DNA of 15,606 nt from Bacteroidota bacterium (lineage in GTDB: Bacteria > Bacteroidota > Bacteroidia > Chitinophagales > LD1): NCBI GenBank assembly GCA_018267355.1, contig JAFDYP010000578.1, positions 1-15,606 on the forward strand. Direction: 5' to 3'. Under the pieces are notes generated by a model. It ran no database searches, was not told where the DNA came from, and was given only the letters and a program-made list of their open reading frames with translations. The position numbers and the translations under genes were made by a program. Of this stretch, positions 5,094-12,778 are shown one piece after another (the stretch's first letter is position 1; each line of letters begins with the position of its first letter).

Positions 5094-6305
5094 ATGAAAA
5101 AAGCAATCAGGACCCTCGTTATTCTACTCGCTACGCTGCAGGCTGCACAGGCCTTTGCCGGAGGCATAGAGTTTGACCATGAGATCGCATTTCAGGATGC
5201 ACTGGACAAAGCAAAGCGCGAGGGCAAGCTGGTCTTCATAGACTGCTATACGAGCTGGTGCGGCCCGTGCAAGCGCCTTTCTGCTACTACCTTTATGGAT
5301 AGCGCGGTGGGAGAATATTTCAACAACAACTACATCAATATCAAAATGGATATGGAGAAAGGCGAAGGCCCGTCTGTATCTACCCGCTACCAGATCACTG
5401 CCTACCCTACCATGCTCTGGCTGGATCAGAATGGCTCTGTGAAAAAACGCACGATGGGCCTGATAGATGCCAATACCCTAATGGCAAATGCGCACGAGGC
5501 CGCAGACCCGCTGCCGGATATCATGAATGACCTCAATAAGAAATATGCTGCCGGTGAGCGCAGCCAGGCATTTATGGAGGAGTACCTGAAGAACTTCAAA
5601 GCATCAGGGCGCAACTATGATGCTGTTTTTGCAGAATACCTCTCGCAAGCGCAGAAGCAAAACTGGCCTAAAGAAAGCACCCTGATGACCATCTATCAGA
5701 TGACAAATAGCTACGAGTCTCCGGGCCTGGATGCACTGGAGAAGGACAAAGCTGCTATCGTAGCCAAAGTGGGGGCAAAACCATATGACCAGAAGCTACT
5801 GGCCATAGCTAAAGACGCAGCAGAGACAGCACGCCGCAAGACAGATCCTAAGATCCTCAATGTAGCGCTGGACCTCACTAAGAAGGCCGGCGGTGCTGAA
5901 AGCAAACAAGCGGCCGCCAAAATGGAGATGGACTACTACTTTAATACTGCCAATGCAGATACGTATGACAAGTATGTGAGCGAGTACATCAAGAAGTACG
6001 CGCCCAATGATGCGAAACTGCTGAATGATGTAGCATGGCAGTACTATATCAATACCAATGAAGAGAAATACATCAAGAAGGCAATGCAGTGGGCCTACAA
6101 GGCGGTAAACCTGCAAAACAACAGTACTAACAATACGACCTACGCCTACCTGCAATACAAGCTGGGCAATAAGTCAGAAGCCACCAAGGCCTGCGACTAC
6201 GCTATCCTGAAGGCGAAAGAAGAGAAGGTAAACCCGCTCTCAGCACAGGCGCTGAAGGATGCGATCAAGAAGGATGAAGCTGCATCCGGCGGTAGTGCTA
6301 AGTGA
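5094..6305 (+). CDS. Exported thioredoxin-fold protein with long helical C-terminal region
   Basis: A 403-residue protein with a signal peptide (1-22, cleavage near AQA or FAGG). A thioredoxin domain (about 25-135) contains the redox motif WCGPCK (C56 and C59) and the cis-proline strand ITAYPTMLWL (P105). The spacing and the IEFDHEIAFQDALDKAKREGKLVFID lead-in resemble the DUF255/Thioredoxin_7 style of periplasmic disulfide proteins in Bacteroidetes. Residues about 140-400 form a soluble alpha-helical array rich in Ala, Lys and Tyr, with tetratricopeptide-like segments (NDVAWQYYINTNEEKYIKKAMQWAYKAVNLQ, then TYAYLQYKLGNKSEATKACDYAILKAKEE). It probably acts in the periplasm in thiol-disulfide exchange, with the helical part recruiting a partner. 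It is 51 bp downstream of the protease and may be co-transcribed, though it also has its own possible -7 box. Its last 8 bases overlap the convergent Coq4-like gene. Confidence 0.88.
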   Translation: MKKAIRTLVILLATLQAAQAFAGGIEFDHEIAFQDALDKAKREGKLVFIDCYTSWCGPCKRLSATTFMDSAVGEYFNNNYINIKMDMEKGEGPSVSTRYQITAYPTMLWLDQNGSVKKRTMGLIDANTLMANAHEAADPLPDIMNDLNKKYAAGERSQAFMEEYLKNFKASGRNYDAVFAEYLSQAQKQNWPKESTLMTIYQMTNSYESPGLDALEKDKAAIVAKVGAKPYDQKLLAIAKDAAETARRKTDPKILNVALDLTKKAGGAESKQAAAKMEMDYYFNTANADTYDKYVSEYIKKYAPNDAKLLNDVAWQYYINTNEEKYIKKAMQWAYKAVNLQNNSTNNTTYAYLQYKLGNKSEATKACDYAILKAKEEKVNPLSAQALKDAIKKDEAASGGSAK

Positions 6306-6762
6306 CCTTTAACTCCTGACGGCCATAGCTGGCCTGTATCTCTGATAGATCCATATGACGGCAGTGTGCCAGGCGGAGGTGCCGGATAGGCGGTCCGGCC
6401 TTCCCCAGTCTGAAATGATAGGATACCTCGCGCCATAGGCCGGGGTAAAACAGGATACTACCCAGCGCAGGCAAAAGACAAGCGGGGCTACGGTTACCAT
6501 TACCGATCATGTAGAACTGCATGCGCAGCTCATCTGCCTCGGTCATATCATAACCCAGCACGATGTGCTTCATATCATGATCTGCAAAGAAAGGCAATAG
6601 CTCGTAGCCCTTGCGGTCCAGCGTATCAGCTATCTCGCGGCCCACGGTGCCGGGCGGCAGCATACGCAGCTGAGCATGCGACTCAGTCAGCTTGTTTCCG
6701 CCGAATAGGCGACCAGCCATCAGGAAGCTGATGTCAATGAGTTTCATGAATGACCAGGGCAT
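6298..6762 (-). CDS. Coq4-like protein with HDxxHx11E metal motif
   Basis: A soluble protein of 154 residues, or 149 if the second ATG at 6745-6747 (MKLIDISF) is used. The most telling segment is FFADHDMKHIVLGYDMTEADELRMQ. H62, D63, H66 and E78 reproduce the HDxxHx11E zinc-site motif of the ubiquinone-biosynthesis protein Coq4 with exact spacing. The following NGNRSPACLLPALGS also resembles the Coq4 core. It is shorter than yeast or human Coq4 (over 260 residues). In eukaryotes Coq4 organises the coenzyme Q complex and has been linked to decarboxylation/hydroxylation of ring C1. Bacteroidetes generally use menaquinone, so the role here is open: quinone-related chemistry, lipid binding or another hydrophobic substrate. 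It is the last gene of a membrane-protein operon, its ATG separated by one base from the upstream stop. Its 3' end overlaps the thioredoxin-like gene by 8 bp, tail to tail. Confidence 0.72.
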   Translation of the reverse strand: MPWSFMKLIDISFLMAGRLFGGNKLTESHAQLRMLPPGTVGREIADTLDRKGYELLPFFADHDMKHIVLGYDMTEADELRMQFYMIGNGNRSPACLLPALGSILFYPGLWREVSYHFRLGKAGPPIRHLRLAHCRHMDLSEIQASYGRQELKVT

Positions 6763-6763
6763 G

Positions 6764-7234
6764 TTAGATTTCAGAGGTAGGCTCAGTGACGGGACAGAGT
6801 TCTTTCTCGTAGTTGCGCTTGTAGTAAAACACTGATACCGTACACGCGATGATGTAAGGAATAGAAAACAAGAAAATAGTCATCCAGATATCCTTGTCAT
6901 AAAACGCCCAAACGAGAAAGAGATAGATAGCCATATACAGCAGCCACTCGGATATAATGAAAGCCTGCCAGATACCGCCAGCGGTGGGTAGAGACGTACG
7001 CTGCCAGTAGCGGGTCAGGATCAGATGGATAATGGATAGTGCGATCTGGATAGGCCAGTACACTATATACATGATCATAGCGATGAGAAACACTACACCT
7101 TCCAGCCCTTTCACATCACCAGAATCGCAAAGGCTAATGGCAGTAACAACAAGGGGTATACCTATAAAGAAAATCAGGAACCCGGCGCCGAGTGAGGACA
7201 TCAGTGAGCGGGAGAAAACATTATTGAGATTCAT
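6764..7234 (-). CDS. Four-helix membrane protein of unknown function
   Basis: 156 residues starting MNLNNVFSRS. Four hydrophobic segments lie at about 14-33, 45-73, 91-111 and 117-137, followed by a short charged tail (YYKRNYEKELCPVTEPTSEI). No catalytic motif or family is recognised. The frame stays open far upstream, but that part lies in the coding sequence of the DUF1361 gene and reads as unnatural Ser/Cys-rich sequence. The ATG at 7232-7234, giving a 14-bp overlap with the upstream gene, is therefore the sensible start and suggests translational coupling. The Coq4-like gene begins one base after its stop, so the two are almost certainly co-expressed. Conserved loop residues such as YWPIQ and LTRYWQ might identify its family in a profile search. 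Confidence 0.75.
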   Translation of the reverse strand: MNLNNVFSRSLMSSLGAGFLIFFIGIPLVVTAISLCDSGDVKGLEGVVFLIAMIMYIVYWPIQIALSIIHLILTRYWQRTSLPTAGGIWQAFIISEWLLYMAIYLFLVWAFYDKDIWMTIFLFSIPYIIACTVSVFYYKRNYEKELCPVTEPTSEI

Positions 7235-7880
7235 AGTCTGCGTTTTGATGGTGAGATAAATAAAAGACGGCATAGCTGAGCGTGAGCAGGAGCCCGATGA
7301 TGACGGTGACCTGTAGCGGCTGCGGATGACTAAATGGATGTACCAGCTCCATGAGTGAGCGGCGCAGTAGATAGATGGGGCGGAAGAAAACATCCCAGCT
7401 ATTCCAGCGCAGGAACCGGCCCAGGTAGATGCCGTATCCCGCGCTGAGAAATAGGACTGGCAGGGCGATCCAGAGTTTTCGGGGTGCAAAGTGGTCTTTG
7501 AGTTTATGATGAATCTGACGTACCGAGAGGAGCGAGAGCAGCAGACCGAGCCAGGCATAGCTGCTCACGAGCAGCACATCATACCAGAATGGTATCATTA
7601 CCCGCTGGCGCAGGTGCAGGAGGTCTGTGATGATATAGGGGCCATTGGGCAGAAAGAGGATCCACAGCGCCAGTATGCCCATAGCGCTGATGGCCTGCCG
7701 GCGGAGGTCGTGCACGGCGAATAGCTGCGCAAGGATATACGGCACCCAGGCCAGGATGAGGTTCCATACCAGGAAGCGGAAAGAGATAGTATCTGACAGG
7801 TGCATACGTAGTACCTCCATGCCGACACAGAAAGCGCTGAAGAACACCAGCGCGAGTGTTATTTTATTTTGGTTGTTCAT
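7221..7880 (-). CDS. DUF1361 family integral membrane protein
   Basis: 219 residues with about six to seven transmembrane segments. It carries the hallmark DUF1361 stretches: ILFLPNGPYIITDLLHL (74-90) and GRFLRWNSWDV (154-164), both conserved polar motifs at membrane edges. The family is widespread in bacteria but functionally uncharacterised. It lies 19 bp downstream of the DUF4173-like gene and overlaps the next membrane protein gene by 14 bp, in the middle of a six-gene minus-strand operon. The conserved Asn/Asp/Arg residues inside the membrane suggest transport or lipid-head-group handling, but that is speculation. The start ATG at 7878-7880 gives a typical short cytoplasmic N terminus (MNNQNK) before the first helix. 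Confidence 0.82.
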   Translation of the reverse strand: MNNQNKITLALVFFSAFCVGMEVLRMHLSDTISFRFLVWNLILAWVPYILAQLFAVHDLRRQAISAMGILALWILFLPNGPYIITDLLHLRQRVMIPFWYDVLLVSSYAWLGLLLSLLSVRQIHHKLKDHFAPRKLWIALPVLFLSAGYGIYLGRFLRWNSWDVFFRPIYLLRRSLMELVHPFSHPQPLQVTVIIGLLLTLSYAVFYLSHHQNADYESQ

Positions 7881-7899: not shown

Positions 7900-9468
7900 T
7901 TAGCGGAGGGAGACCGGGCAGGTGAGCTGATGCGTGCGGATCATTTCTTTGATCGCCGTCAGGTTGCGATCCTTGCTGATGCAGGTGCTCTGCCAGTCGT
8001 GCCGGCCATAGTTGCGATCGAGATAGAGATAGTTTGACCAGAGCGCCTTTTTGATCTCTATATTTGGATCGGCTATGGTCTCCATGATGGCCTCTGCATT
8101 GGGGGCCGTGACAGCCACTGCTACCTGTACGGAGTCTTCCCGGGTTTTGAGGGATTTGTTTTCTACTATGTAGAACCGGAATAGCTGTGCCAGATTGGCG
8201 TGGCTGAGATTGACCATGTACTGCTGGTCTATCTCCATTTTTTTATCCTCCTGAAAGTGGCTGATATTAAAGTCTGCTATCACCGTATCCCAGTCTACCG
8301 GCACGGCTGCGATCAGCAGGGCATACATGATCCACGCATTCTTGCGAAAGAGAAACCAATTGTTTTTAGCCTGTAGTATCTTGATAAAGGTCGTGACGAG
8401 GCCCGCGATGCAAAGTGCGAGATAGACGTAGACGCCGATACGTTTGTGCGTGAGGCCGTAGCTGGCGATATAGGAGTAGTTGCGATAGCAGGTGGAGAGC
8501 ACGAGGATGATATTCTGCGCGATCCATAGATGCGCGAGCAGTTTGAGCCATTTATTTCCCCCATAGAAATTGAGATAGCCGCGGAAGTAGAAAAGAATGA
8601 TGCTGATAGCAAGGATAATAGAGAGGATCAGCGCATTGGTACCATTGTGCAGAAACTGGGCATAGGTGATGCCCGCAGGCACGCGGTGTGCGATGCCGAG
8701 ATAGTAAACGTCGAGGCCGTTGACCACTGACAACAGGCCATTGAGCAGGATGAGGAGCAGCACGCCGGTGTAGACGAGGTTATCTGCATTAGCAAACTGA
8801 GATAAGCTATCCTGCTCCTCTGTGATGACAGCGAGGTCATCAGGTGTGGTGTGATCGCGGCGCTGTATGCTGTCAGCTATGCGCTGCCGGAAGAAGCCAT
8901 ACATGAGCAGGAAACCGCCGATGGTGAAAAGCACCCACCCGGCAGACAGCCAGTCGAAGTTGATGCGGCTGGCAAGCTGGTCAAAGATGGGATTGCTCTC
9001 GCGGTAGATAAAGAAGAAGACAAAAAAGATGACCACAGGGATGATGGCGAGGAGTACTTTCTGGATGGCGCGGCTTTCTGTGCTATTCTCCCGTGGAGAG
9101 GTGATGCGCATGATAAAATCAGAGGCCATAAAGATGACCACGCAGCACATGGAGAAAAACGACTGCAGCCAGGCGATGATAAAAGACGACTCTGGATCCA
9201 TACTGAAACCTGCAAGGGCTACGAGTGAGATCACATTGGCTACGTACGGCAGGGTGGTACCGTACCAAAACACAAAAAACGAAGACACGATACACCCCGC
9301 CGCCGCAGCTATAAAGGTGAGCCGCCGTAGCAGGGCCGCATCCCGCACGAGCAGCAGTATGATGAGCAGTATGTCAAAGATGAAATAATTGATGCCGGCA
9401 GATTGCCGGTAAAAGAGGAAACTCCAGGCCGCCGTAGCCACGAGGATAGGGACGTCATTTCTTTTCAT
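7900..9468 (-). CDS. DUF4173-like (DUF4153-related) polytopic membrane protein
   Basis: A 522-residue protein with about 12 predicted transmembrane helices up to residue 393 and a soluble tail of about 125 residues. Features seen in DUF4173/DUF4153 proteins include the central LLNGLLSVVNGLDVYYLG (241-258), followed by GITYAQFLHNGTNALILSIILA (266-287), which resembles the usual Y-A-x-F-x-x-x-G-x-x-x-L block. The segment YGLTHKRIGVYVYLALCIAGL (337-357) also matches in style. The C-terminal tail after the last helix (DWDTVIADFNI ... KSLKTREDSVQVAV ... RNYGRHDWQS) is probably periplasmic. The family has no established biochemical role. It follows the 67-residue small protein gene by 53 bp, with no terminator between, and precedes the DUF1361 gene by 19 bp. 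A second-sized membrane protein beside DUF1361 suggests these act together in the envelope. Confidence 0.75.
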   Translation of the reverse strand: MKRNDVPILVATAAWSFLFYRQSAGINYFIFDILLIILLLVRDAALLRRLTFIAAAAGCIVSSFFVFWYGTTLPYVANVISLVALAGFSMDPESSFIIAWLQSFFSMCCVVIFMASDFIMRITSPRENSTESRAIQKVLLAIIPVVIFFVFFFIYRESNPIFDQLASRINFDWLSAGWVLFTIGGFLLMYGFFRQRIADSIQRRDHTTPDDLAVITEEQDSLSQFANADNLVYTGVLLLILLNGLLSVVNGLDVYYLGIAHRVPAGITYAQFLHNGTNALILSIILAISIILFYFRGYLNFYGGNKWLKLLAHLWIAQNIILVLSTCYRNYSYIASYGLTHKRIGVYVYLALCIAGLVTTFIKILQAKNNWFLFRKNAWIMYALLIAAVPVDWDTVIADFNISHFQEDKKMEIDQQYMVNLSHANLAQLFRFYIVENKSLKTREDSVQVAVAVTAPNAEAIMETIADPNIEIKKALWSNYLYLDRNYGRHDWQSTCISKDRNLTAIKEMIRTHQLTCPVSLR

Positions 9469-9521: not shown

Positions 9522-9725
9522 TTAGTCGTTATAAAAAACTCCGAGCAGCGTGTGCAGGGTGCTGGCCAGGAGCATTTTCCTTTTCAGTTCTTTGTCATCA
9601 TGGAGGTTGCGTGTTTCTTCTTTCTGCGGAGCAGTATGACGCGCATGCCTGAGCGACTGCTGCAGCGCACGGCGGGTCCACTGCAGCGCAGTGAGGGTCA
9701 CGATCATTTTTGCGAAGCGGAACAT
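9522..9725 (-). CDS. Small 67-residue protein of unknown function
   Basis: A short frame begins with the ATG at 9723-9725, one base after the stop of the upstream membrane protein gene, an arrangement typical of coupled translation. The product (MFRFAKMIVTLTAL ... LLGVFYND) is basic and Arg/His/Lys-rich in the middle, with amphipathic ends and no clear membrane helix or known motif. The frame is also open upstream, but there it overlaps the neighbouring gene and reads unnaturally. The same stop-N-ATG layout recurs at the Coq4-like gene, which supports the call. It fills what would otherwise be a gap of about 260 bp inside the operon. It may be a small accessory subunit or regulator of the membrane proteins. 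A non-coding origin cannot be excluded. Confidence 0.5.
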   Translation of the reverse strand: MFRFAKMIVTLTALQWTRRALQQSLRHARHTAPQKEETRNLHDDKELKRKMLLASTLHTLLGVFYND

Positions 9726-9726
9726 A

Positions 9727-10227
9727 TCAGAAAACAGTATTGAGCCGCTCGATGCTGATGGTATGCTCCAGCCTGCGGATGCGGTCGCGCACAAACCAGA
9801 GCGGTATGATACCCACCACGCCAAAAGAGCAATCTACCAGCCGCCACCACACCGGTATGCCCCTCACCTCCCCCATCACAAAGGCGAAGGGCAAGATCAT
9901 GACGCAGGCTACCATGCCAAACTCTACCACCCAGACATTGCGCACCGGGTCGCGCAGGACGCCGATGAAGAGGACCGCTATCACTATGTGCGCAAAGGCG
10001 AGCCAGTCATAGCCGTAGAAGAGCATAGAGTTGCACTGATACAGGGCCTCGCGTACAGACATGAGATAGGCCTGTATCATGGTCCATGACTGCGGCACCA
10101 CACTGACCAGCCAGCTCACCCCCTCGCGCGCAGGCATAGCGGTGAGGCCACTGATGGTGAGCGATACCATAAAGAATACGATCATGTACCTGATCTGTCT
10201 GCGATAGCGGATTGTTTGCTTGTCCAT
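9727..10227 (-). CDS. Four-helix membrane protein of unknown function, first gene of operon B
   Basis: 166 residues. A basic N terminus (MDKQTIRYRRQIRY) precedes four hydrophobic segments at about 12-31, 74-91, 98-117 and 127-147, and the protein ends in a charged cytoplasmic tail (RDRIRRLEHTISIERLN). The 40-residue loop after helix 1 (MPAREGVSWLVSVVPQSW...) is probably outside. No known motif or family is recognised. It is the promoter-proximal gene of the minus-strand run 10227-6298. The ATG at 10225-10227 lies 9 bp from the operator-like repeat at 10237-10261, which is shared with the regulator operon. Its expression is therefore likely controlled by the adjacent winged-helix protein. It could be the sensor or core component of this operon, but the sequence itself gives no biochemical clue. 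Confidence 0.75.
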   Translation of the reverse strand: MDKQTIRYRRQIRYMIVFFMVSLTISGLTAMPAREGVSWLVSVVPQSWTMIQAYLMSVREALYQCNSMLFYGYDWLAFAHIVIAVLFIGVLRDPVRNVWVVEFGMVACVMILPFAFVMGEVRGIPVWWRLVDCSFGVVGIIPLWFVRDRIRRLEHTISIERLNTVF

Positions 10228-10236
10228 TTTATATTA

Positions 10237-10261
10237 TTTAAAAGCACTTTGTAATTCAAAG
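10237..10261 (-). promoter_or_regulatory. Operator-like 25-bp element, copy 1 (head of operon B)
   Basis: On the + strand it reads TTTAAAAG, CACTTTG, TAATT, CAAAG. It matches the copy at 11289-11313 at 22 of 25 positions. Its core ACTTTG-TAATT-CAAAGT (10246-10262) is a perfect 6-bp inverted repeat with a 5-bp spacer. On the minus strand TTACTTTG, a near-consensus -7 box, lies inside and beside the repeat, so a bound protein would block the promoter of operon B. Confidence 0.6.
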
Positions 10262-10270
10262 TAACAATGC

Positions 10271-10295
10271 AAAAAAACAGGAGGGTATGCCTCCT
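10271..10295 (-). terminator. Rho-independent terminator of the regulator operon
   Basis: On the minus strand a perfect 6-bp stem, AGGAGG and CCTCCT (+ strand 10279-10284 and 10290-10295) with a 5-nt loop, is followed one base later by seven T residues (10271-10277). It lies about 20 bp past the stop of the HTH_34-type regulator and just upstream of the operator of the next operon. It therefore separates the two transcription units. Confidence 0.75.
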
Positions 10296-10314
10296 CATTC
10301 GTTTGCCACCCGGC

Positions 10315-10614
10315 CTATTCGCTCTGGCGGATCATATCCTCCAGCGCCTTCAGGTGATGGTTAAACTCCATCTTGCCGAGCTTGGTCGCTACATAGGTCG
10401 TCTTGGTCTTCTTGCCTACAAATTCCTTTTTCACGGCGATATACTCCAGCTTCTCCAGTGCGGTGATGTGGCTGGCCAGGTTGCCATCGGTCACATTCAG
10501 CAGCTCCTTGAGCGTGAGGAAATCCACACTCGCATTGACCATGAGCGCCGACATGATGCCGAGCCTGATCCTGTTTTCGAATGCCTTATTTAACCTGTCT
10601 ATAAAATTTTTCAC
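10315..10614 (-). CDS. Winged-helix transcriptional regulator (HTH_34-like)
   Basis: A 99-residue single-domain DNA-binding protein of the MarR/ArsR-like winged-helix type, closest in style to Pfam HTH_34. Helix 1 begins FENRIRLGIMSALM (12-25). DFLTLKELLNVTDGNLASHITALEKLEYI (31-59) is the helix-turn-helix, with the T-D-G-N-L-x-x-H-I-x-x-L-E recognition helix characteristic of the family. VKKEFVGKKTKTTYVATKLGK (61-81) is the basic beta-wing. The chosen start is GTG (10612-10614), 12 bp after the stop of the upstream membrane protein gene; no ATG gives a complete first helix. It forms a two-gene operon with that membrane protein, ended by the hairpin at 10271-10295. The twin 25-bp elements upstream of this operon and of the next one make it the likely repressor of both. 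Its signal is unknown, as no ligand domain is present. Confidence 0.88.
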   Translation of the reverse strand: MKNFIDRLNKAFENRIRLGIMSALMVNASVDFLTLKELLNVTDGNLASHITALEKLEYIAVKKEFVGKKTKTTYVATKLGKMEFNHHLKALEDMIRQSE

Positions 10615-10626
10615 AGCACTATCTTC

Positions 10627-11289
10627 TTACCAGTACTTCTTCTCTTTTGGTTTGGCCTCGTACCTGATGTACATGATCAGTCCATATACTATGTGCAGCA
10701 CGCCAAAGCCGATAGCCCATAGTGTCACGCCATAGCCCAGGTACAGGCAGCCTATCAGCCCGAGTATGAGCTCTGATATGCCCAGCCAGCGCACCTCATC
10801 CAGCGTGTACTTGGAGCCATTGAGCAGGGCGAGGCCATAGAAGATCAGCGTAGCCGGCGGTATGATACCAAACCAATGATATTTGAATAGCAATATCAGG
10901 CAAAACAGTCCGCCTGTAGCGAGCGGGATGAACAGGTTGAACATAAACCTGAGCACGGAGAGATCCCAGATGCGCTGGCCGTCCTCTTTGGCCTTGCGGG
11001 CGGTGAAGTAGCTACCTACTGCCAGCGCGAGAAAGAGCGTAGCACCCGCATCTACAAAGCAGAAGGTATAAAAGTCCATATCCAGGTCTATGGGCAGGCG
11101 GTGTGCCAGCTCGCTATAGCCATAGCCGATACGCTGATTGACAAAGATGTAAAAGGCCGCAGCACCTGCCAGCGCAAAGAAACCCGCAAATACACCTGAC
11201 AAGCCGCTCAGGCTGAGAAACCTGCTGCTGCGCTCCATCATGGTCTTGATCTCGGCCAGCTGCTGCAAATGATCTGTTTTCTGACTCAT
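10627..11289 (-). CDS. Six-helix membrane protein paired with the winged-helix regulator
   Basis: 220 residues. A soluble amphipathic N terminus (MSQKTDHLQQLAEIKTMMERSSRF) precedes about six hydrophobic segments near 28-50, 76-96, 111-133, 140-157, 169-186 and 188-209, and a basic tail (EAKPKEKKYW) follows. Conserved-looking features are SRFLSLSGLSGVFAGFFAL at the first helix and GSKYTLDEVRWLGISELILGLI before the last pair. No enzymatic motif is seen. Similar membrane proteins next to a small winged-helix gene are common in Bacteroidetes, as far as I recall, but are uncharacterised. The N-terminal helix and direct co-transcription (12-bp gap) suggest it may sense an envelope or lipid signal and affect the regulator, a speculation. 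Expression starts from a near-perfect promoter at 11309-11339 overlapping the 25-bp element. Confidence 0.8.
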   Translation of the reverse strand: MSQKTDHLQQLAEIKTMMERSSRFLSLSGLSGVFAGFFALAGAAAFYIFVNQRIGYGYSELAHRLPIDLDMDFYTFCFVDAGATLFLALAVGSYFTARKAKEDGQRIWDLSVLRFMFNLFIPLATGGLFCLILLFKYHWFGIIPPATLIFYGLALLNGSKYTLDEVRWLGISELILGLIGCLYLGYGVTLWAIGFGVLHIVYGLIMYIRYEAKPKEKKYW

Positions 11290-11313
11290 TTAAAAGTACT
11301 TTGTACTGCAAAG
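11289..11313 (-). promoter_or_regulatory. Operator-like 25-bp element, copy 2 (regulator operon)
   Basis: Read on the + strand it is TTTAAAAG, TACTTTG, TACTG, CAAAG, differing from the copy at 10237-10261 only at element positions 9, 18 and 20. It contains CTTTG and CAAAG as inverted half-sites, and AGTAC-AAA-GTACT on the minus strand. It overlaps the -7 box and reaches the ATG, as expected for autorepression. Confidence 0.6.
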
Positions 11314-11339
11314 CTAATATTGAAATCCATACCTCCAAA
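11309..11339 (-). promoter_or_regulatory. Bacteroidetes-type promoter of the regulator operon
   Basis: On the minus strand, TTTG (11336-11339) is followed after exactly 19 bases by TAGCTTTG (11309-11316). This is a perfect match to the -33/-7 consensus TTTG-N19-TAnnTTTG. Predicted transcription would begin about 12 nt before the ATG, inside the operator-like element. Confidence 0.7.
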
Positions 11340-11418: not shown

Positions 11419-11760
11419 ATGGCAGAGAAAGAATACAAGACCTTCTGGAGCTTCTATCCCTACTACCTGAGAGAGCATAGCGACCCGGTGAACAGGACCC
11501 TGCACTTCATCGGTACGGGGCTGGTGATCGCGAGCTTTGTAGCTGGTCTGGTCACCATGCGGTGGTATTTCTTTGCGGCTATCCCATTCCTGGGTTATGG
11601 TTTCGCGTGGGTAGGGCACTTCTTTATAGAGAAGAACAAGCCGGCCACCTTCACCTATCCGCTGTGGAGCCTGGGGTCAGACTTTGTCATGTTCTGGCAT
11701 ATCCTGACCGGGCAGATACAGAAGCGGCTGGATGATGCGCACCAGGCTTCCGCGCGGTAA
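11419..11760 (+). CDS. DUF962 / Mpo1-like membrane protein
   Basis: 113 residues of the YGL010w/Mpo1 family. Typical elements are FWSFYPYYLREHSDPVNRTLHFIGTGL (9-35), with H20, N25, R26 and H29, and YGFAWVGHFFIEKNKPATFTYPLWSLGSDFVMF (60-92), with H67, E71 and the N-K-P-A-T-F turn. A further His, H94, lies in MFWHIL. Two to three membrane helices are present. The yeast homologue Mpo1 is an Fe(II)-dependent dioxygenase that removes one carbon from 2-hydroxy fatty acids in phytosphingosine breakdown, using such histidines. A comparable fatty-acid role here is inference, although sphingolipids and 2-/3-hydroxy fatty acids are common in Bacteroidetes. It appears monocistronic, with its own promoter and a possible weak terminator. 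Confidence 0.85.
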   Translation: MAEKEYKTFWSFYPYYLREHSDPVNRTLHFIGTGLVIASFVAGLVTMRWYFFAAIPFLGYGFAWVGHFFIEKNKPATFTYPLWSLGSDFVMFWHILTGQIQKRLDDAHQASAR

Positions 11761-11929: not shown

Positions 11930-12778
11930 ATGAAGGAAGTCGTAATAACAAAAGCATCAGGTGAAAGAGTTCAATTTTCACCAGCCAAGCTGCAGAACTC
12001 TCTGAAGCGCGCCGGAGCAGATGAGGCGGCGATCAAAGCGATCGTGCAAAAGATAAAAGGCCAACTCTTTGAAGGGATCACCACAAAGGAGATCTATCAT
12101 ATGGCCTTTGACCTATTGAAGCATAAGACATCTGTCACAGCTGCTAAATACAAACTCAAGCATGGTATCATGGAGCTGGGGCCTAACGGCTTTGCATTTG
12201 AAAGATTCATGGCAGAAGTGCTCCGGGCCAAAGGCTTTGATGCATATATAGGGCAGATCGTACAGGGGCGGTGCGTCAGTCATGAAATAGATATCATAGC
12301 CAGGAAAAAGCAATGGCACTATATGATCGAGTGCAAGTTTCACAACAATCCGGGCTTTGTCTGTGATGTGAAGATCCCGCTCTATATCCACTCCAGGTTT
12401 CGTGATGTGACGGATGCCTGGGAAAAAGAGCCTGATCATAAAGGGGAATCTTATCAGGGCTGGGTGGTGACCAATACACGCTTCACCACTGATGCGATCC
12501 AATATGGCACCTGTGCGGGTCTGCACCTGCTAGGCTGGGACTATCCGGCCCAAGGCAGCCTGCGGGACCAGATAGATGAGACGGGCCTCTATCCACTGAC
12601 GTGCCTGACGACGCTGACAGCAGCGGAAAAGCAGGAGCTGATGGCAGCAGGACTCATCCTGGCCAGGGAGATACCCCAGCGGCAAGACAAGTTATCTCGT
12701 ATTGGCATCTCGCCGCAGCGGCTAGTGCATATCATGGCCGAGAGCGAATCGCTCTGCACCGGTGGACTTCACAGATAA
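11930..12778 (+). CDS. ATP-cone plus Mrr-type PD-(D/E)xK nuclease
   Basis: A 282-residue fusion. Residues 1-83 resemble an ATP-cone, the nucleotide-sensing domain of ribonucleotide reductases and NrdR (VVITKASGERVQFSPAKLQNSLKRAGA ... TTKEIYHMAFDLLK). Residues about 84-205 form an Mrr-like restriction endonuclease core: FERFMAEVLRAKGFDAYIGQIVQG, then HEIDIIARKKQWHYMIECKFH. D121 and E134-C-K136 supply the PD-(D/E)xK metal site, and E91 may be the helix Glu. VVTNTRFTTDAIQYGTCAGLHLLGWD matches the family's distal TNTxFT block. The C terminus (LSRIGISPQRLVHIM) may be a helix-hairpin-helix-like DNA-binding segment. No methylase or helicase is adjacent, so it may be a modified-DNA (type IV-like) nuclease, or a DNA-repair or stress enzyme gated by nucleotide level. 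A PAP2 phosphatase gene follows by 12 bp. Confidence 0.85.
   Translation: MKEVVITKASGERVQFSPAKLQNSLKRAGADEAAIKAIVQKIKGQLFEGITTKEIYHMAFDLLKHKTSVTAAKYKLKHGIMELGPNGFAFERFMAEVLRAKGFDAYIGQIVQGRCVSHEIDIIARKKQWHYMIECKFHNNPGFVCDVKIPLYIHSRFRDVTDAWEKEPDHKGESYQGWVVTNTRFTTDAIQYGTCAGLHLLGWDYPAQGSLRDQIDETGLYPLTCLTTLTAAEKQELMAAGLILAREIPQRQDKLSRIGISPQRLVHIMAESESLCTGGLHR

Follow-up and report, generated by a model that had tools for sequence, protein, structure and literature searches.

The stretch of DNA analysed here, 15,606 nucleotides from a member of the Bacteroidota and hereafter called the window, carries two neighbouring operons on its minus strand, each headed by a short element that is nearly the same in both. 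This raises the question whether the small winged-helix protein encoded in one of the operons controls the two of them through this element, and how far such an arrangement extends beyond this genome. The features concerned are the following:

11309..11339, minus strand: predicted sigma-A-type promoter of the P1-regulator operon, with TTTG (11336-11339), a 19-nt spacer and TAGCTTTG (11309-11316)
11293..11313, minus strand: operator 1, CTTTGCAGTACAAAGTACTTT, overlapping the -7 box of the P1-regulator operon
10630..11289, minus strand: P1, a 220-residue membrane protein, no Pfam family
10315..10614, minus strand: HTH_34 winged-helix regulator of 99 residues (Pfam PF13601)
10279..10295, minus strand: terminator-like hairpin with T tail between the two units in the window
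10271..10277, minus strand: T7 tract upstream of operator 2 with constant spacing, conserved also in relatives that lack the hairpin
10241..10261, minus strand: operator 2, CTTTGAATTACAAAGTGCTTT, overlapping the -7 box of the membrane operon
9727..10227, minus strand: A166, 166 residues, first gene of the second operon, no Pfam family
9522..9725, minus strand: small protein of about 67 residues, matched in 5 of 17 family stretches, in two of them partly
7900..9468, minus strand: DUF4153 protein (PF13687, E 2.6e-44)
7221..7880, minus strand: DUF1361 protein (PF07099, E 6.1e-38)
6764..7234, minus strand: membrane protein of about 156 residues, less conserved than its neighbours (30-76% identity in matches)
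6298..6762, minus strand: Coq4-like protein with an HDxxH(x)11E motif

The repeat reported in the initial annotation was confirmed: the 25-bp elements at 10237-10261 and 11289-11313 are identical at 22 of 25 bases, and CTTTGNANTACAAAG, with at most two mismatches, has six matches in the window (three places, both strands), compared to a mean of 0.30 and a maximum of 2 in dinucleotide shuffles. The core of the element is a palindrome, CTTTG-N5-CAAAG, followed by CTTT, and in relatives the conserved unit is longer than the palindrome and continues to (T/C)ACTTT. Exact matches to a relaxed form of the palindrome with fixed A and T, CTTTGNANTNCAAAG, occur in the genome from which the window stems (a 3.4-Mb draft in 645 contigs, 77% complete) at these two places only. 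A chance repeat is ruled out by the shuffles, by this genome-wide uniqueness, and by the positional conservation in relatives and the co-occurrence with the regulator gene that are described below.

The winged-helix gene was also recognised correctly, its product being an HTH_34 protein (PF13601, E 3e-26) that scores 91.8 bits against a gathering cut-off of 27 and covers profile positions 1-80 of 80. In comparison with the winged-helix regulators of the MarR, HxlR and PadR types, its Pfam scores for MarR (14.2, cut-off 24.6) and ArsR (HTH_5, 15.1, cut-off 22) are too low for assignment, as is its score for the NCBIfam model HTH_metalloreg (20.8, cut-off 55). The predicted structure has a winged-helix fold like that of PH1061 (1ub9), the nearest solved structure, and residues 43-55 or thereabouts (DGNLASH) form the helix that is expected to read DNA. 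Compared to PH1061 and HTH_34 (PF13601) as such, the present case additionally offers a nameable operator, a paired membrane protein and targets. A search of the open-licence PMC literature yielded no paper on HTH_34/PF13601 and, among the matches listed, no description of the regulator, the operator or the DUF4153/DUF1361 operon as a studied system. The same genome encodes a second, distant relative of the regulator on another contig (G000:C286:2676-2933, E 2.2e-12).

The position of the elements relative to the promoters is important for their interpretation. An excerpt of the promoter map of Flavobacterium psychrophilum places the -7 box, for which the Bacteroidota consensus is TAnnTTTG, at -12 to -5 (PMC9723704). 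At operator 1, TAGCTTTG fits this consensus, whereas TTACTTTG at operator 2 has one mismatch (A replaced by T), and the second operon has the T7 tract in its spacer region and no TTTG at -33. The near-perfect promoter that had been claimed thus holds for the regulator operon, but not for the second one. Among the first sites of relatives (77), TTTG begins at -27 to -25 in 35. If the spacing given in the excerpt applies here, transcription would start inside the palindrome, and a bound regulator should therefore block the start.

Conservation upstream of orthologues, on which the initial annotation had let its proposal depend, was found at two levels of kinship. Within the family, 16 of 30 genomes (including the one studied here) have P1 and 12 of the 30 have the DUF4153 gene. 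If one mismatch is allowed, the palindrome occurs in 14 of 17 family stretches, in 27 copies which all precede P1 or A166, with none elsewhere. The three stretches that lack it are two fragments in which neither gene start is present (L039, L042) and that of genome G006 (L046), where the site before P1 has two mismatches; in the stretch from another genome (G001) only the first site was present and the second operon was not seen. Genome G006, which has P1, also carries an exact site before creD, on another contig, and this site fits by its context. Exact palindromes in family genomes that lack P1 (8 sites in 7 genomes) were taken as chance occurrences: none lies beside a P1 or regulator match, six are inside reading frames, one is at the very start of a frame (L062) and one between genes (L064), and a reversed control pattern also finds matches.

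Across the phylum, public genomes yielded 549 confirmed relatives of P1, of which the best 80 loci were kept; these include Pontibacter, Pedobacter, Chitinophaga, Dyadobacter, Chryseobacterium and many metagenome assemblies. In every one of these best 80 of 549 loci the regulator gene follows P1 on the same strand, at a distance of at most 60 nt in 66. Exact CTTTG-N5-CAAAG is found within 160 nt before P1 in 77 of the 80, within 400 nt after the regulator stop codon in 71, and at both places in 70, and the 1,178,426 bases of these loci contain only five other copies. Two of these five, in Dyadobacter (L144 and L156), head a longer operon with P1 and the regulator, and a site stands at the head of the regulator operon in 79 of the best 80 loci (the P1 start in L138 was set by hand). 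One locus lacks the first site (L150), and nine lack a second site within 400 nt. In the two Dyadobacter loci P1 is part of a 370-residue open frame (8001-9113) that is about 150 residues longer than usual. Alignment on the palindrome gives roughly T-(A/T)-A-CTTTG-nAnTn-CAAAG-(T/C)A-CTTT, in which the third element, CTTT, lies outside the palindrome, the -7 box and the search pattern, and is 96-100% conserved per base. The operator can be read as three half-sites of which the last is a direct repeat of the first, so that protein contacts may extend beyond a single dimer.

Whether the operator belongs to the regulator can be judged from genomes that have one or the other. In 248 genomes of the order, searched for P1, the regulator and the exact extended site, P1 was found in 131, the regulator in 158 by any match and in 137 at E <1e-20, and the site in 130. 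The site is present in 126 of the 137 regulator genomes (11 without) versus 4 of the 111 genomes without the regulator (107 without), corresponding to 296 versus 5 sites in total, and the 21 genomes with only a weak match to the regulator profile (E >1e-20) are all without sites. Since a reversed control pattern matches 17 of the 248 genomes, the four site-bearing genomes without a regulator are at chance level. Eight of the 11 regulator genomes that lack an exact site have a site with one mismatch before P1. The same tendency is seen in a sample of 296 genomes from the phylum, where 92 genomes match the regulator strongly and 72 of these have the site, versus 14 of 204 others, eight of these 14 having a mid-range match. 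Fisher's test gives p values of 1.9e-51 (248 genomes) and 8.9e-36 (phylum sample), figures in which independence is overstated by the kinship of the genomes. Of the 20 strong-regulator genomes of the phylum sample without an exact extended site, 16 are in a single family (f39), in which the operator may have shifted or the regulon may have been lost. The genome lists for both samples were transcribed by hand, and their totals agree with the available tallies (131, 158, 130, 86).

An operator that tracks P1 rather than the regulator is disfavoured by genomes in which the two genes are dissociated, even though these are few in number. Seven genomes have the regulator without P1, and four of them have exact sites (2, 2, 7 and 1); the other three have none, one of them with a two-mismatch match near the regulator gene and two without a match of at most two mismatches there. 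G039, the single genome that has P1 but lacks the regulator, is without a site, the best match before P1 having six mismatches, and no regulator was found beside P1. Because some genomes keep the regulator without P1, P1 is, on this genomic evidence, not required for conservation of the site. Two of the seven regulator loci without P1 (L256-L262, in G071, G100, G107, G037, G061, G084 and G095) have a diacylglycerol-kinase-like gene, named by reading, directly after the regulator (G100 and G037). Extended operators were also found as pairs 28 to 136 bp apart at four places (G247:C23:25760/25850; G215:C1:2814227/2814255; G128:C157:1110/1138; G177:C1:358744/358880), three of which precede proteins of about 105-136 residues and one a protein of 648 residues.

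More specific evidence for recognition of the operator by this protein comes from changes in the predicted recognition helix. Among 28 genomes of family f13, the helix reads LAGH (Ser48Gly) in 8 and not in 20, and the inner G-C of the palindrome is changed to A-T in at least one recognised site in 7 of the 8 LAGH genomes versus none of the 20 others. In the exceptional genome, G208, the first site is intact despite LAGH; G254 shows the change in its second site alone, and the best match at the second position of G190, although its inner base is T, is too degenerate to be counted as a site. The site finder used for this family tolerated A as well as G, and T as well as C, at the inner positions, and the 28 genomes, which are not independent, were picked for having or not having sites and not for the residue. 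LAGH is confined to two genera (g41 and g57) among the f13 genomes and is absent from the best 80 P1 loci, of which 71 have DGNLASH and 9 other variants, including one with Thr48 and intact sites. Both helix types occur in genus g41, and in all 12 members read, except G208, the operator matches the helix, which speaks against common ancestry as the sole cause. What the genomes themselves show is the operator, where it stands, that it depends on the regulator gene, and that it covaries with the helix; the covariation of residue 48 with the inner base would provide a natural specificity pair for HTH_34.

Taken at this level, the HTH_34 protein very probably binds both sites and controls both operons. 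We further consider it likely, with good confidence, that it represses its own and the neighbouring operon through CTTTG-N5-CAAAG-N2-CTTT, a regulator-operator pair that recurs across the Bacteroidota, with P1 as the most likely candidate for setting the activity of the regulator. The 99-residue protein would bind the operator as a dimer, and with both copies overlapping the -7 box and the expected start, the bound dimer would block RNA polymerase. It would thereby repress the operon of P1 and the regulator as well as the operon of A166, the small protein, DUF4153, DUF1361, the membrane protein and the Coq4-like protein. Elsewhere in the phylum the same pair would control genes that vary, mostly for membrane proteins (CreD, DUF4153, DUF1361, diacylglycerol kinase, VanZ). 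Direct binding, the dimer and repression are what we infer here, repression because the operator overlaps the promoter. The initial proposal of a shared operator that joins the two operons via the HTH_34 protein is thus borne out by position, co-occurrence, dissociation and covariation, with repression still a matter of interpretation; that reading was largely right, and its scope is much broader than had been stated. Small winged-helix repressors with an operator over their own promoter are a familiar kind, and the surprise is in the reach, with one 21-bp operator marking the same regulator in families across the Bacteroidota.

Among other explanations, an unlikely one, though the strongest of them, is that the HTH_34 protein binds both sites but activates transcription, or that homeostasis of P1 and the regulator is the main point and the second operon a passenger. 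The second-operator promoters indeed show no TTTG peak at the -33 place, as may be the case for promoters that need help, and the neighbouring target varies (CreD, DUF4153, A166 and others). However, both the -7 box and the expected start lie under the site, and an operator in this position usually hinders the polymerase. Moreover, the promoter at the first operator of the window has a full -33/-7 pair, and sites also precede genes on other contigs, such as creD in G006.

Repression by the HTH_34 protein also has to be weighed against a role of operator 2 in termination, which is connected to the T tract. In this quite improbable scheme, bound regulator would stall polymerase arriving from the P1-regulator unit while the transcript forms a U-rich hybrid, so that the T tract and operator 2 would act as a roadblock terminator that insulates the units. 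The window has a true hairpin at that place, and 58 of 71 second operators have six or more T between -16 and -10, an abutting stem being present in only 2 of the 71. Against this, 11 of the 13 second operators with fewer than six T carry A5-7T3-5 there, from which no long U tract is expected, and the T tract is rare at other sites where a co-directional gene ends within 120 nt (2 of 17 first operators and 0 of 6 remote sites, versus 6 of 36 remote sites in other contexts). The latter rates, obtained with a crude gene caller that recognised the preceding regulator gene in 50 of the 71 second operators, also lend no support to the idea that a T tract generally signals a co-directional gene upstream, and the interpretation of the tract as the tail of a plain intrinsic terminator is ruled out phylum-wide by the scarcity of stems. 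The argument from a terminator between the units is weaker than the initial annotation put it: besides the stems found in only 2 of 71 loci of the phylum, a hairpin was discerned by eye in 4 of the 15 family rows with a second operator, with perhaps a weaker one in a fifth. The T tract rather looks like a DNA element that belongs to the second promoter and may stand in for the -33 contact, whose place would be close to the end of the regulator gene.

Finally, two similar core promoters (TAnnTTTG) with chance similarity downstream and no shared regulator are hardly credible: CTTTG does lie within the -7 consensus as excerpted (PMC9723704), and the left half of the palindrome doubles as -7 box in both copies, so that part of the conservation is expected without a regulator, but the well-conserved CTTT is outside that box and was not searched for, the sites track the regulator gene across genomes, and the inner base varies with residue 48 of the recognition helix.

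With repression by the HTH_34 protein as the preferred reading, the identity of the controlled genes becomes relevant. From 71 second-operator loci, 6 gave no first gene and 65 were scanned. At least two TM-like segments were found in 61 of these 65 first genes versus 392 of 1023 control frames, the latter including P1, targets and some spurious frames. Their Pfam families are CreD (15), DUF4153 (10), Coq4 (2), DUF6688 (2), DUF1361 (1) and VanZ (1), the two Coq4 genes matching at E <=0.01 with 3.1e-05 as the best value, and an A166-like protein comes first in 7 of 51 loci read. For remote sites, among the matches listed, 40 stretches were fetched and 39 examined, of which 35 gave a gene and 34 were scanned; at least two TM-like segments occur in 27 of these 34 first genes, some of which may be wrong frames. 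Also among the matches listed, the remote first genes comprise nitronate monooxygenase (2), diacylglycerol kinase (2), DUF2809 (2), VIT (2), DUF1361 (1) and a radical SAM protein (1), so that some targets, such as nitronate monooxygenase and radical SAM, bear names that do not point to the envelope. The Dyadobacter operon with a single operator at its head consists of DUF1361, diacylglycerol kinase, P1 and regulator (naming by reading). The label Coq4-like given earlier to the last gene of the second operon in the window is fair with respect to the HDxxH(x)11E motif of the Coq4 family, which was found in the window protein and at all 7 loci of relatives that were searched, whereas the score against PF05019 is 12.5 bits, below the cut-off of 22.9. 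The targets probably form an envelope-homeostasis regulon, to judge from these sequences. The operator thereby gathers mostly unnamed membrane proteins (DUF4153, DUF1361, P1, A166), together with CreD and Coq4-like proteins, into a regulon that can be tested, and regulator and operator together point to a switch for membrane-protein genes that seems not to have been studied.

The prominence of CreD invites comparison with the CreBC-CreD system of Proteobacteria. Deletion of CreD harms envelope integrity in Stenotrophomonas maltophilia, according to an excerpt of that study (PMC4689548). The likeness is that CreD is the commonest Pfam family directly after the second operator; the difference is that here a one-domain winged-helix protein with a membrane partner takes the place of a two-component system. 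No CreD match was found in the draft genome to which the window belongs.

The membrane partner, P1, is predicted to consist of an N-terminal helix and six long helices. It gave no Pfam match up to E 0.1 and no match to solved structures at E <=0.001, the latter being no proof of a new fold, and named entries among its 120 best relatives are "hypothetical protein" or, twice, "YgdD-like membrane protein". SdpR, with which the regulator may be compared, is of the ArsR type, and Pfam has a model of its membrane partner SdpI. In Bacillus subtilis, SdpI holds the autorepressor SdpR at the membrane, as stated in an excerpt of the report (PMC1626106). Both cases have a winged-helix regulator in one operon with a polytopic membrane protein and an operator of its own, autorepression being presumed in the present one. 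However, the regulator is of another family, P1 has no detected SdpI homology (no Pfam match), and the regulon extends past its own operon. Because no homology was found, the P1-regulator pair is not classed as a member of the SdpI/SdpR system; it would at most work like it. P1 would most likely set the activity of the regulator, perhaps by tethering it to the membrane upon disturbance of the envelope. A more elaborate proposal, which we put forward tentatively and regard as somewhat doubtful, is that P1 and HTH_34 form a membrane-signalling switch across the Bacteroidota, in which P1 senses disturbance of the inner membrane or envelope and binds the repressor via its conserved N-terminal segment (MERSSRF, then SLSGLSG), so that a lineage-specific set of genes for membrane proteins is released from a shared operator that is merged with the -7 box. 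If true, this switch would parallel both SdpI/SdpR and the control of CreD by CreBC, no homology to either having been detected.

Some further genes surround the two operons. An Mpo1-like gene (PF06127) at 11419-11760 is divergent from the P1 operon; 9 of the 17 family stretches contain a match to it, located upstream of P1 and oppositely oriented. It is followed in the window by a gene for an ATP-cone domain fused to an Mrr-type nuclease domain (11930-12778). On the other side, at 5094-6305, lies a gene for a thioredoxin-like protein (by reading), which is matched in 8 of the 17 family stretches.
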